From Halorubrum trapanicum (GTDB lineage: Archaea > Halobacteriota > Halobacteria > Halobacteriales > Haloferacaceae), in NCBI RefSeq assembly GCF_002355655.1, contig NZ_AP017569.1, positions 1,054,001 to 1,118,000 of the forward strand: a DNA stretch of 64,000 nucleotides, read 5' to 3'. Below the pieces are notes generated by a model. That model was not told where the DNA came from. It searched no databases and worked only from the letters and a program-made list of their open reading frames with translations. Position numbers and translations under genes: made by a program. Below, piece after piece: positions 19,025 through 55,707 of the stretch (its first letter is position 1; each line of letters begins with the position of its first letter).

Positions 19025-19353
19025 TTATAAATAGCGAGCGGTAGCGTCGGCAGCGTCGGAGACAGTTTATAAACGGTTGACGGCGCTGCGGCGAACGCCT
19101 CCAAAGCCCCAGCCGCGAGGGCTCGGTGCGCTCGCTGCGCTCCTCAGTCGCTCGTTTCACTCGCTCCTTGCGGTGCTTGCGTCGCGCGCCTTCGCCCTCG
19201 CGGCTGCCCCTTTGAGTCCCGCCCAACCGCGACCGCACCTCACGCCTCCCCAGCCTCGTCGCTGGTCCTCCGCTACGCTCCGGACCAGCGACTCCCTCGC
19301 GCGTGCCGTCTCGCGGTCGCCGGGAGCGACCGCTCGCGGGCACGCGCCACCGC
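19025..19353 (-). repeat. structured dispersed element, copy A (core 19101-19353, tail toward 19025)
   Basis: This fills the convergent gap between the methyltransferase and the gene at 19388. Read on the minus strand, the core begins GGTGGCGCGTGCC, has outer helix GCGCGTGC/GCACGCGC, an inner stem CGGTCG/CGACCG, a stem GTCGCTGGTCC/GGACCAGCGAC, the box GGACTCAAAGGGGCAGCC, and a long helix GCCGCGAGGGC/GCCCTCGCGGC enclosing GCAAGCACCGCAAGGAGCGA. The tail has two degenerate units ending in TTTATAA. The same architecture with different stem sequences occurs at 23792, 26324, 30882 and 53448. Confidence 0.85.
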
Positions 19354-19387
19354 AGTCATTTATAAATGGCGGCGCGGCGCGTCCGAG

Positions 19388-23791: not shown

Positions 23792-24245
23792 GGTGGCGCG
23801 TGCCGACGAGCGGCCGACAGGCCGCGAGTCGCACGCGCGAGGTCGCCGGCGCTACGCGCCGGCTGCCAGAGGGACCTTCGGTCCCTCGCTGGAGTCAGCC
23901 GGCCGGAGCGAAGCGGAGGCCGGCTGACGAGGCTGGGGAGGCGTGAGGTGCGGTCGCGGTGCTGTGCGGGGCGGGACTCAAAGGGGCAGCCGCGAGGCGG
24001 GCGCAGACGACGTAAGCACCGCAGCGAGTGAGCGGAGCGAACGAGCGAGGAGCGCAACGAGTGTGCGCCCTCCTCGCGGCTGGGGATTTGTAGACGTCCT
24101 CCGCCGATCTGCCAGCAACCGTTTATAAGCGAGCGGCCGGGAAGTTGGAGAGATTCACTGCCGCCGCGACCGCGACGATTTATAAACAACCGGCTGAACT
24201 TCGTGCTTGAGCACCACCGGCACCGCGCAGTGATTTATAAATACA
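23792..24245 (+). repeat. structured dispersed element, copy B (core to 24090, tail to 24245)
   Basis: Core on the plus strand: GCGCGTGC/GCACGCGC around GGCC/GGCC, an extra hairpin CGCCGGCG-CTA-CGCGCCGGC, an extra GAGGGACC/GGTCCCTC, the variable stem GTCAGCCGGCC/GGCCGGCTGAC, the box GGGACTCAAAGGGGCAGCC, and the long helix GGGCGCA/TGCGCCC within GCCGCGAGG/CCTCGCGGC. The tail has units starting at 24077, 24134 and 24191, exactly 57 bp apart, each ending in TTTATAA plus about 5 nt. It fills most of the 683-bp gap 23701-24383. Confidence 0.88.
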
Positions 24246-26323: not shown

Positions 26324-26693
26324 GTCGCTCGCTTATAAATGGCTGCTGCTGGATCGACGGAGAATGCCTCTAAAGCCCCAGCCGCTCGCTTATAAATGGT
26401 CGAGTGCGGATCGGCGGTGAACACCGCCAAAGCCCCAGCCGCGAGGTGGGCGCACGTTCGCTGCGCTCCTCGGTCGCTCACTTCGTTCGCTCCCTGCGGT
26501 GCTTACGTCGCCTGCGCCCGCCTCGCGACTGCCCCTTTGAGTCCCAACCCCGCCCCGCACAGCAACCGCACCTCACGCCTCCCCAGCCTCGTCGGGCGCA
26601 TCCTTCAGGCTCCCTTCGGTCGCCCTCGGAGCGCCCGACTCCCTCGCGCGTGCGACTCGCGCCCTGCGGGCGCTCGTCGGCACGCGCCACCGC
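26324..26693 (-). repeat. structured dispersed element, copy C (core 26427-26693, tail toward 26324)
   Basis: Read on the minus strand: GCGCGTGC/GCACGCGC around GCGCCC/GGGCGC, the stem GTCGGGCGC/GCGCCCGAC with a long hairpin loop, the box GGGACTCAAAGGGGCAGTC, and a long helix with GGGCGCA/TGCGCCC. Tail units start on the minus strand at 26441 and 26384, and the next boundary is at 26327, exactly 57 bp apart, each with TTTATAAGCGAG. It accounts for most of the 530-bp gap between SRP54 and the DICT gene. The tail points toward the SRP54 start codon. Confidence 0.88.
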
Positions 26694-30881: not shown

Positions 30882-31286
30882 GGTGGCGCGTGCCTGCGAG
30901 CGGCCGCCCCCGGCGGCCGCGAGACAGCACGCGCGAGGGAGTCGCGAGCGCTCTTAAGCGCGAGCGACGAGGCTGGGGAGGCGTGAGGTGCTGTGCGGTC
31001 GCGGTCGGGTGGGGCTCAAAGGGGCAGCCGGGAGGCCGCAGTAGGCGACGTAAGCACCGGAGGGAGCGAGCGAAGCGAGCGACTGAGGAGCGCAACGAGC
31101 GTACTGCGGCCTCCCGGCTGGGGCTTTGGAGGTGTTCCCCGCCGATCTGCTCGCGGTTATTTATAAGCGAGCGGCTGGGGCTTTGGAGGTGTTCCCCGCC
31201 GATCTGCTCGCGGTTATTTATAAGCGAGCGGCTGGGGGCTTTGGCGGTGTTCGCGGTCGATCCAGTATCGATTATTTATAAGTGGG
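30882..31286 (+). repeat. structured dispersed element, copy D (core to 31132, tail to 31286)
   Basis: The cleanest copy. Outer helix GCGCGTGC/GCACGCGC encloses GGCCGCC/GGCGGCC. The next stem is GTCGC/GCGAC around AGCGCT/AGCGC(G). The box reads GGCTCAAAGGGGCAGCC. The long helix is a perfect 17 bp, GCCGGGAGGCCGCAGTA/TACTGCGGCCTCCCGGC, enclosing GACGTAAGCACCGGAGGGAG. Tail units start at 31115, 31172 and 31229, 57 bp apart; the first two are nearly identical and each carries TTTATAAGCGAG. It lies between convergent genes and explains most of the 530-bp gap. Confidence 0.9.
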
Positions 31287-31332
31287 TAACCGGTACTTCA
31301 GCAGCGCCCTCACCCGATCCACGGCCTACTAT

Positions 31333-31851
31333 TTATACGTCAAAGAGGCGCTCGGCGTCGTTCGCCTGGCGGCGGTAGATGCCGCGACCCTTCAGCCGTG
31401 GGACCTCGTGGCGGTGGAGCCGCTCCGCCTCCGCGTCGTACACGAGCGGGAACACGTTCGTCCGGCGCTTCGCGACCGTGAATCCGGTCATCGCGTCGAG
31501 CAGCGACGGGTCGGGGTCCGAGGTCGCGAACGCCACGTAGCCGATGGGCGTCGGCGCCTCGCCGCCGTCGGCGCGCCCCGGGCGGGGGTCGACGGTCTCG
31601 GCGAGCACGTCCCGGAGCGACGCCGCGGTCTCTGCGAGCGTCGCCGCGTCGATTCCGTTCCCCTCGGTTTCGCTCGCCTCGGTTTCGTCCGCCTCGACGA
31701 GCGTCGCCAACACCGCGACCTCGCCGAGCGTGTCGTCCGTCTCGCGGGTCGCCCACAGGCGCTCGAACGCGTCCGTCCGCTCGTCGACCGCCTCGAAGCC
31801 GTGCTCGCGCCGGTTCTCCGCGACCGCGTCCCGGTAATCGCTGATGTCCAT
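31333..31851 (-). CDS. hypothetical conserved haloarchaeal protein
   Basis: A 172-residue soluble acidic protein from ATG 31851, MDISDYRDAVAENRREHGFE. A helical N-terminal half ends in an Asp/Glu-rich stretch; the C-terminal half (PIGYVAFATSDPDPSLLDAM, RRTNVFPLVYDAEAERLHRH) looks like an alpha/beta domain ending KGRGIYRRQANDAERLF. No motif identifies a reaction. It converges with the actin operon across element copy D. An upstream in-frame start would add 22 residues read through the promoter and is unlikely. Confidence 0.7.
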   Translation of the reverse strand: MDISDYRDAVAENRREHGFEAVDERTDAFERLWATRETDDTLGEVAVLATLVEADETEASETEGNGIDAATLAETAASLRDVLAETVDPRPGRADGGEAPTPIGYVAFATSDPDPSLLDAMTGFTVAKRRTNVFPLVYDAEAERLHRHEVPRLKGRGIYRRQANDAERLFDV

Positions 31852-32608: not shown

Positions 32609-32759
32609 TAGTCCCGGGCGGATTCGAACCGCCGTCAATGGCTGACTTCGGGCATCCGACGGGCGTCCTTGCCGGAACGCCCAACAGCCGCGCGCGAGTC
32701 GCGGACGCGGACGGATTCCCTCCAAAGGCCATTATGATTGGCCACTACACCACGGGACT
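32609..32759 (-). tRNA. tRNA-Gln (anticodon TTG) with 78-nt intron
   Basis: Acceptor AGTCCCG/CGGGACT with discriminator A, D arm GTG...CAT, anticodon stem ATGGC/GCCAT, loop CTTTGG-A with anticodon TTG, T arm GGCGG-TTCGAAT-CCGCC. An intron of about 78 nt (32644-32721) interrupts the loop after position 37, the usual archaeal site. Mature length is 73 nt; CCA is not encoded. Intron-bearing tRNA-Gln is known in haloarchaea. Confidence 0.92.
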
Positions 32760-53335: not shown

Positions 53336-53447
53336 TCACTTACGTGGTTACCGAGCCGGTTCTAATGCTTTTCTATACGCACGTTCGTGGTCATCGACAG
53401 CGACCGCGACGCCCATGCGACGCGAGAACGGCCCGCGGTGCATGTGC

Positions 53448-54026
53448 GGTGGCGCGTGCCTGCGAGCGGCCGCCGGGCCGCGAGCCAGCACGCGCGAGGG
53501 AGTCAGTCGCCGGAGCGAAGCGACGGCGACTGACGAGGCTGGGGAGGTGTGAGGCTGCGGTCCCGTGAGCGACCGGAGGGAGCGAACGGGAGTACGGAAG
53601 TCGCAGCCCGCGCAGCGAACGCAGTGAGCGAGCAGGACCGTCTTCCGGTGGTGCTGTGCTGTGCGGGGCGGGACTCAAAGGGGCAGTCACCGGCGGCTTC
53701 GCCGCCGGTTGCCCGTGGCGCGTAGCGCCACGCTGCCGTGAGGCGGGCGCAGGCGACGCGAGCACCGCAGGGAGCGAACGGAGTGAGCGACCGAGGAGCG
53801 CGGCGAGCGTGCGCCCGCCTCTCGGCTGGGGCTTTGGAGGTGGTGTCCGTCAACTTGGTCGTAGTTATTTATAAGTAATCGGCTGGGGCTTTGGAGGGAT
53901 TCGCCGCTGATCTGCTAGCGATCGCTTATAAACAAACGGCTGGAGGATTGAGGGTGTCCGTCGCCGAGCCGCTCGCAATTATTTATAAGAGAACGGTCCG
54001 CACCGCTGTGACTGTTTATAAAAGAA
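53448..54026 (+). repeat. structured dispersed element, copy E (core to 53840, tail to 54026)
   Basis: The longest copy. GCGCGTGC/GCACGCGC encloses GGCCGC/GGCC. The variable stem is GTCAGTCGCC/GGCGACTGAC. Extra helices not in the other copies are inserted: GGCTGCG/CGCAGCC, ACCGGCGGC-TTC-GCCGCCGGT and CGTGGCGC-GTA-GCGCCACG. The box is GGGACTCAAAGGGGCAGTC and the long helix GAGGCGGGCGCA/TGCGCCCGCCTC. Tail units begin at 53823, 53880, 53937 and 53994, all exactly 57 bp apart, then a 33-bp remnant, with TTTATAA or CTTATAA at the end of each. It fills the 680-bp gap between PurL and the next gene. Confidence 0.88.
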
Positions 54027-54570: not shown

Positions 54571-55707
54571 ATGACGGACCCCCGGGACAGGGAGCTACGG
54601 CGGTACGAGACGATCCTCGACTCGCTCGACGACGCGGTCTACGCCGTGCGTCCCGACGGGACCATCGCGTACGTCAACGATCGGTACGCCGAGATGAAGG
54701 GCGTGAGCCGGGAGGAGCTGATCGGAACGAACATCTACGACTGGGTGACCGAGGAGGCCGCGGAGAAGGCCAGGGAGGTACGCCGCGAGATCGAAGCGGG
54801 AGAGCGAACCGCCGGCGCGGTCGAGTACGAGTTCCTCACCGCGGACGGCGACCGGTTCCCGGTGGAGATGCGGTTCAATCGGCTCGTCGACGGGCAGATC
54901 GAGGACGGAGAGATCGAAGACGGAGAGATCGAAGACGGAGAGATCGAAGACGGAGAGATCGAAGACGGAGAGATCGAAGACGGAGAGATCGAAGACGGAG
55001 AGATCGGAGACAGGGCGTCCGAGCTCGACCGCGTCGGCGTCATCCGGGACGTCCGCGAGCGGAAGCGGCGCGAGGAGGAGCTCCGGGAGAACAACGAGCG
55101 GCTCGAGGAGTTCGCGAGCATCGTCTCGCACGACCTCCGGAACCCCCTCAACGTCGCGCAGGGGCGGCTCGACCTCGCTCGCGAGGAACACGACTCCGAC
55201 CACCTCGACGCCGTCGCCGACGCCCACGAGCGGATGGAGACGCTCATCGAGGACCTCCTGACGCTCGCCCGCGACGGCGAGGGCGTCGAGGACCCGGAAC
55301 GGGTCCAGCTCCGGGAGTTCGCCGAGACGTGTTGGGAGGGCGTCGAGACCGCGTCGGCCTCGCTCCGGGTCGAGACCGACCGCGCGATCAGTGCGGACCG
55401 GAGCCGGCTCAGACAGCTCTTCGAGAACCTCCTGCGGAACAGCGTGGAACACACGGGCAAAGACGTCACGGTGACGGTCGGCGACCTCGACGGCGGCTTC
55501 TACGTCGCCGACGACGGCCCGGGAATCCCCGAGAGCGACCGCGAGAGGGTGTTCGAGACGGGGTACTCCACGAGCGACGACGGGACCGGGTTCGGCCTCG
55601 AAATCGTCGCGACGGTCGCGGCGGCCCACGGCTGGGACGTCCGTGTCGCCGACGCCGCGGACGGCGGCGCCCGGTTCGAGTTCACCGGAGTCGACGTGCT
55701 CGACTGA
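54571..55707 (+). CDS. PAS-domain sensor histidine kinase with EDGEI repeat
   Basis: A 378-residue cytosolic sensor kinase. PAS domain at about residues 10-155 (ILDSLDDAVYAVRPDGTIAY, VNDRYAEMKGVSREELIG). The kinase has H-box IVSHDLRNPLN, N-box LFENLLRNSVEHTG, G1 VADDGPGIPESDRERVFE and G2 DGTGFGLEIV. Seven tandem EDGEI pentapeptides interrupt the C-terminal strand of the PAS fold at residues about 111-145. No response regulator is adjacent, as is common in haloarchaea. Confidence 0.92.
   Translation: MTDPRDRELRRYETILDSLDDAVYAVRPDGTIAYVNDRYAEMKGVSREELIGTNIYDWVTEEAAEKAREVRREIEAGERTAGAVEYEFLTADGDRFPVEMRFNRLVDGQIEDGEIEDGEIEDGEIEDGEIEDGEIEDGEIEDGEIGDRASELDRVGVIRDVRERKRREEELRENNERLEEFASIVSHDLRNPLNVAQGRLDLAREEHDSDHLDAVADAHERMETLIEDLLTLARDGEGVEDPERVQLREFAETCWEGVETASASLRVETDRAISADRSRLRQLFENLLRNSVEHTGKDVTVTVGDLDGGFYVADDGPGIPESDRERVFETGYSTSDDGTGFGLEIVATVAAAHGWDVRVADAADGGARFEFTGVDVLD
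54901..55005 (+). repeat. 15-bp tandem repeat, seven units, inside histidine kinase
   Basis: Unit GAAGACGGAGAGATC, repeated seven times without interruption. Only the first unit differs, by one base. It encodes (EDGEI)x7, keeps the frame for any copy number, and is flanked by degenerate half-units (GGGCAGATC before, GGAGACAGG after). The near-identity of units points to recent slippage expansion. Confidence 0.95.

Follow-up and report, generated by a model that had tools for sequence, protein, structure and literature searches.

Tandem 57-bp tails of a dispersed Halorubrum element with a structured RNA-like head

REP and BIME elements, which go with RAYT transposases, are hairpin elements of 20-40 bp found in high copy number between genes. 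BOX elements of Streptococcus pneumoniae are dispersed, have a predicted RNA fold, carry a tandem boxB module and are over-represented between convergent genes (PMC3049150). From the haloarchaeon Haloquadratum walsbyi, MITEs, PATEs and SMRs have been described (PMC3119063). The element reported below combines a dispersed, hairpin-rich head with a tandem tail; topic and sequence-string searches of the open-licence literature found no description of it.

The elements of the window and their head

Five elements (A to E) were recognized in the window, by which we mean the whole 64-kb stretch of DNA analysed, and together they contain all of its 15 TTATAA sites. The head of element D (30882..31130, plus strand) starts at GGTGGCGCGTGCC and, as in the other heads, consists of hairpins P1 and P2 and the long hairpin P3, with strongly conserved segments such as GAGGCTGGGGAGGCGTGAGG. 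It is supported by covariation and by a match (30968-31130, 171.7 bits, E 9e-30) to R1, a covariance model built on the P3 part of the head. Its tail comprises unit 1 (31115..31171), the arm of which is the 3' strand of P3 itself; unit 2 (31172..31228), identical to unit 1 at 57 of 57 positions; unit 3 (31229..31286), which is 58 bp long with one extra G and ends in TTTATAA; and a decayed unit 4 (31287..31338), whose final TTTATAC overlaps the convergent gene's stop codon, the TTATAC at 31333 lying 57 bp past the TTATAA at 31276.

Element B, also on the plus strand, has its head at 23792..24092 (R1 match 23928-24092, 171.4 bits) and its tail at 24077..24240, with TTATAA at 24123, 24180 and 24235 (steps of 57 and 55 bp). 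Element C, on the minus strand, has its head at 26426..26692 (R1 match 26426-26591, 166.7 bits) and a tail of two units (26328..26441, TTATAA at 26390 and 26333). The plus-strand head of element E (53447..53840) contains extra hairpin modules inside P3 and gave two R1 matches, 53534-53660 and 53732-53831; three units and a 33-bp step make up its tail (53823..54021, TTATAA at 53869, 53926, 53983 and 54016, steps of 57, 57 and 33 bp). In element A, on the minus strand, a TTTATAA box at 19360 lies 5' of the head (19100..19352; R1 match 19100-19258, 156.3 bits), and the tail (19025..19113) has a single arm and TTATAA at 19067 and 19025, a 42-bp step with no 57-bp unit.

An earlier note on this DNA had read exact 57-bp units starting at 31115, 31172 and 31229 in D, at 24077, 24134 and 24191 in B, at 53823, 53880, 53937 and 53994 in E, and at 26441, 26384 and 26327 on the minus strand in C. 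The identity of the first two D units was confirmed, but not the length of the third; B opens with two 57-bp steps, but its TTATAA sites are spaced by 57 and then 55 bp; three of the E units stand, but the one read at 53994 is not a unit; and in C the first two are good, but 26327 has neither an arm nor TTATAA. The placement of the tail on one fixed side was borne out in every element, the tail lying 3' of the head in element A as well (minus strand, 19352 to 19025).

A separate 15-bp tandem repeat, AGATCGAAGACGGAG, is present in 7.7 copies at window positions 54896-55011, within a long reading frame (54571-55707).

In an alignment of 46 heads, 97.2% of the cells of the structure were paired, and both sides had changed at 21 of the 38 pairs. 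Cells changed on both sides numbered 192, against 54 in shuffles, and pairing dropped to 32-42% in slid controls. At fixed-register pairs, counted on the head-to-tail strand, the ratio of G·U to A·C was 28:0, 43:0, 17:0 and 15:0, and 38:3 in another test. Since a G·U on one strand is an A·C on the other, this excess points to selection on an RNA read from head to tail. An A·C excess was seen in some variable-register helices, probably from misalignment, and the strand asymmetry therefore rests on the fixed-register pairs. These pairing patterns show the head to be a structured RNA-like domain, which, as judged from the sequences, would be read from head to tail.

Whole hairpin modules have been gained or lost within P1, P2 and P3 with complementarity kept (window 53447-53840; D-locus orthologues L213, L216 and L218), and between D-locus orthologues the P1 and P2 hairpins can be wholly different and still complementary. 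The longer copy L262 owes its length to an extra P1 hairpin module, which ruled out an extra tail unit there. At curated gathering scores no Rfam family matched the head, and a search with element D gave chance-level matches only (E up to 5). The sole Rfam match in the window was a tRNA of 151 nt, presumably intron-containing (32609-32759, minus strand, 47.3 bits), which was missed by ARAGORN.

Of 293 genomes of the order, R1 matched 202, spread over 67 of 87 genera, and it recovered copies from Halobaculum and, weakly, from Halorussus, none of which had been used in building the model. Head copies ranged from 4 to 86 per genome in the 12 genomes counted. A search with element D yielded at least 50 matches, the best 40 of 266 candidates being scored. 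The exact unit pattern was confined to Halorubrum genomes among the matches listed (at least 120, in the named collection), where TTATAA pairs numbered 0 to 203 per genome, and no tandem tail was found in the non-Halorubrum copies read. On these genome sequences the tandem tail is apparently a Halorubrum speciality on an order-wide head. Two genomes of another genus of the family, G066 and G067, have TTATAA arrays with a period of about 32-35 bp; R1 had one match in G067 and none in G066. A viral origin of the element was dropped, since the head had no match in viral contigs (exact motif) or in phage records.

Anatomy, period and turnover of the tail unit

Each tail unit duplicates the 3' strand of P3, the last hairpin of the head, and adds a linker and a spacer. 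The closing sequence of P3 is GRCTGGGGCTTTGG; this arm and about 12 nt after it recur in every further unit, followed by the spacer and the linker. In the Halorubrum genomes the linker is either TTTATAAGC or CGTAYAGCC, followed by CGAGCG. The TATA motif is therefore optional: TTTATAA is one version of the linker and a non-essential part of the unit. Six congeners had 10 to 29 exact arm-arm pairs but only 0 to 3 TTATAA pairs, because their linker is mostly CGTAYAGCC. That every unit ends in TTATAA, as had been proposed, is true of most units in the genome of origin, but not of these congeners, nor of the window unit that ends in TTATAC. Conservation within units 1, 2 and 3 was highest in the arm and in TTTATAA, and the spacer ranked among the least conserved parts.

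Genome-wide statistics were obtained from pattern searches and from stretches of sequence fetched from the genome. The pattern TTATAA-N{36,66}-TTATAA (pairs 42-72 bp apart) occurred 148 times in the genome of origin, nearly always at 57 bp, against twice in the reversed control. Counted from the arm, the first TTATAA stood at offset 43 in 120 of 145 elements, and later ones at 100, 157, 214 and 271. Arm-arm pairs were present in 44 of 52 Halorubrum genomes and absent from the reversed control, with arm-to-arm periods of 57, 54, 51, 48, 60 and 63 bp. The period was exactly 57 bp in 227 of 243 spacings with TTATAA between the arms (93%, at a mean identity of 83%) and in 25 of 42 without it; because TTATAA patterns guided part of the choice of loci, the frequency of the box is biased, but the arm-to-arm spacing is not thereby fixed. 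Among the 33 spacings other than 57 bp, 26 were multiples of 3, and a handful of subfamilies may lie behind these steps. The exact 57-bp periodicity of the earlier note is real and well above chance but not universal, given steps of 33, 42 and 55 bp in the window and of 48-63 bp in Halorubrum. Elsewhere in the genome of origin (G000:C1:1492018-1492230), an array with a 69-bp period has TTATAA boxes flanking a GAGCGACTGGGGCTTCGG core.

Length variation was confined to the spacer; the remaining block of about 40 bp, linker-GAGCG-arm-NGG-TGTTCNCCG, was of constant length. The proposed constraint on spacing was upheld: unit length was kept beyond expectation, with 22 indels to 790 substitutions between adjacent units (0.028) against 60 to 457 in the flank of the D locus (0.131), a one-locus control with non-independent pairs.

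One set of congeners carries the element at the D locus, with the number of units ranging from 0 to 4; other congeners lack it there and have a gap of only about 50-80 bp; in G118, G131 and G141 the gap carries a version with different outer repeats, inverted in G118. Identical adjacent unit pairs numbered 30. The identical neighbours in D and the varying unit number among its orthologues show that units are gained and lost in place, in agreement with the suggested repeat-by-repeat growth. Copies with other periods or with no tail, which the earlier note had set against its reading, were found in other species.

Blocks were also found to be swapped among copies. Three copies in G127 are 98.6-99.7% identical over about 350 bp and have unrelated flanks, and two copies in G111 are 97% identical from past P2 to the 3' end and differ in P1 and P2; such mosaics are the pattern expected from gene conversion among dispersed copies.

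Some copies are mobile. These are full-length, about 575-650 bp, with inverted ends GGCTCTGTTGAAAYCC...GGRTTTCAACAGAGCC and 8-bp target duplications (AAATCGGT/AAATCGGT, perfect in L262, 7/8 in L249 and 6/8 in others), so that a subset of copies has both the terminal inverted repeats and the target duplication of a MITE. Ends of the GGCTCTGTTGAAAYCC type were found neither around window copy D nor around its orthologues, and the window copies, which have no recognised ends, therefore lack the terminal inverted repeats of a MITE; nor was a target duplication established for any of them. The mobile full-length copies are mostly without 57-bp arrays; the exceptions are L043, L157 and L120 (51-bp units).

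No autonomous partner with GGCTCTGTTGAAAYCC ends was found among the transposases examined. The IS6-type transposases that were found were rejected as partners, since they have their own, different ends and are only nested within the elements, as in L282 and L277, where IS6-type insertion sequences with GGTCGCGTTAAG-like ends are inserted inside GGCTCTGTTGAAAYCC-ended elements. Four loci (L291, L290, L292 and L308) have GGCTCTGTTGAAAYCC ends and perfect 8-bp target duplications around other cargo, which includes a frame of about 345 residues for a multi-pass membrane protein, by eye similar to an Acr3/arsenite-type transporter. These GGCTCTGTTGAAAYCC-ended elements read as a putative family of trans-mobilised cassettes.

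Candidate roles of the tail

Protein coding was tested because the periods step by 3 bp. A tail translated into a repeat peptide of 16-21 residues would fit these steps (26 of 33 spacings other than 57 bp), and two frames are open in the consensus, but stops occurred at the rate predicted from independent columns, no codon-phase signal was detected, and some arrays carry TAG in every unit, in one of the two open frames. The reading frame was open in only 42 of 79 arrays, and head length modulo 3 was random; on stop frequency, codon phase and frame through the head, translation was rejected and is scarcely credible. An RNA mini-hairpin within each unit was also rejected, no covariation being found for it. 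Extra 3' arms might instead compete for the 5' arm of the head and switch its fold. Every unit has a complementary arm, and the arm of P3 itself follows the C/T change of the head (p 6e-19); the old extra arms, however, show no covariation with the heads they belong to (p 0.5 and 1.0), and such strand exchange appears very unlikely. With no coding, no mini-hairpin covariation and no covariation of the old arms, primary sequence and spacing are what is left. TTTATAA is a good archaeal TATA box and occurs in most units of the genome of origin, which would favour reading the tail as a row of promoters or, as the earlier note had suggested, of TBP sites, with each TTTATAA counting as one. Intergenic repeats of 58 bp act as promoters in halovirus HF2, but the motifs quoted for them are unlike the tail unit (PMC8707807). 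The BRE expected upstream of the TATA box is not conserved, its position (33-37 of the unit) falling in the least conserved spacer with a mean information of 0.2-0.6 bit; of 128 tails, with genes called by a simple codon-score method, only 38 lead into a gene start and 90 point at the 3' end of the following gene; several congeners have TATA-free linkers; and the number of TTATAA arrays was unrelated to TBP copy number (Spearman -0.07, p = 0.61), which was discarded as an explanation for it. On these grounds a TBP-site array is unsupported and very improbable.

It is also conceivable that the head hairpin and AT-rich units end the transcripts of convergent genes from both sides. By the gene calls used above, 51 of 128 tails had a convergent context, compared with 4 of the window's 35 gaps, and TTATAA is palindromic and elsewhere missing from the window. 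The linker, however, is often CGTAYAGCC and not AT-rich, and BOX and IS elements share the convergent bias, which was read as insertion tolerance (PMC3049150); we find this transcription boundary doubtful. A functionless tail, with units made and homogenised by slippage and gene conversion alone, would account for the many identical neighbouring units, the free variation of unit number between orthologues, the spread of blocks among loci and the congeners without the TTTATAA form. It fits poorly with the conservation of arm and box in units 2 and 3, where the spacer drifts, with the indel deficit, and with the fact that 93% of TTATAA units, at a mean identity of 83%, keep the 57-bp period, and we regard a neutral minisatellite as possible, though on the unlikely side.

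The explanation we prefer, with a confidence slightly above even, is that a dispersed, MITE/BOX-like element whose head is a structured RNA carries the tail at its 3' end as an expandable minisatellite, which probably serves as a DNA-binding array. Units would arise by slippage or unequal exchange, and would reach other copies via gene conversion and transposition. Less surely, a protein binding double-stranded DNA may keep the block of about 40 bp, linker-GAGCG-arm-TGTTCNCCG, in register, and the bound block might perhaps form a boundary where genes end on their 3' side. Gene conversion, however, could likewise suppress indels, and a neutral minisatellite spread passively by conversion would explain much of the evidence; the enrichment at 3' ends is also expected of harmless insertions. 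A binding array predicts no 3-bp stepping of the other periods. In a more tentative form, to which we give rather little weight, an order-wide ncRNA with tens of copies per genome and absent from Rfam may have gained a tunable 3'-arm array in Halorubrum, the block and the 3-bp-stepped period serving a DNA-binding architecture as a mobile boundary module at gene 3' ends.

Significance and comparison with known systems

Of the haloarchaeal genomes searched, about two thirds have a predicted, strongly covarying structured RNA, frequently in tens of copies, for which there is no Rfam family. Were the head element functional, its action could extend to hundreds of gene ends; were it selfish, it would be a wide-ranging RNA-bearing archaeal parasite. 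The number of units in the Halorubrum tail runs from none to about 6, and from none to 4 at a single orthologous locus, a natural dosage series by which the effect of repeated sites beside gene ends on expression can be tested. The end-sharing elements with other cargo are a lead on gene transfer among haloarchaea.

With REP and BIME the element shares hairpins and a high copy number between genes, but its head is about 250 bp and not 20-40 bp. The class I intergenic repeats of HF2 are similar in length (about 58 bp), in having an AT-rich box and in their haloarchaeal setting, but they are viral, not tandem and proven promoters, and were discarded as relatives of the tail since the motifs are unrelated (PMC8707807). 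The MITEs, PATEs and SMRs of Haloquadratum are likewise haloarchaeal, non-autonomous and trans-mobilised, the MITEs with inverted ends and target duplications; they differ in that the portion of the source cited here reports neither an order-wide structured RNA nor a 57-bp tail (PMC3119063).

BrickBuilt of Porphyromonas gingivalis is an intergenic MITE with an internal minisatellite, varies in unit number at conserved loci and has ends that decay from outside inward, as seen here, but it has 23-bp units in about 19 copies and no conserved RNA head (PMC4596501). BOX, by its published description, is similarly dispersed, with a predicted folded RNA, a modular build with a tandem module, a convergent-gene bias and slow recent movement (PMC3049150). 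In Halorubrum the module copies one strand of the terminal hairpin of the head, and the repeats are 3'-terminal with a fixed period of 48-63 bp, whereas those of BOX are central; the element is archaeal, and no sequence relation to BOX is expected. The element is nearest in design to pneumococcal BOX, which has a repeated boxB module, a predicted folded RNA and a convergent bias, and to BrickBuilt, a MITE minisatellite.
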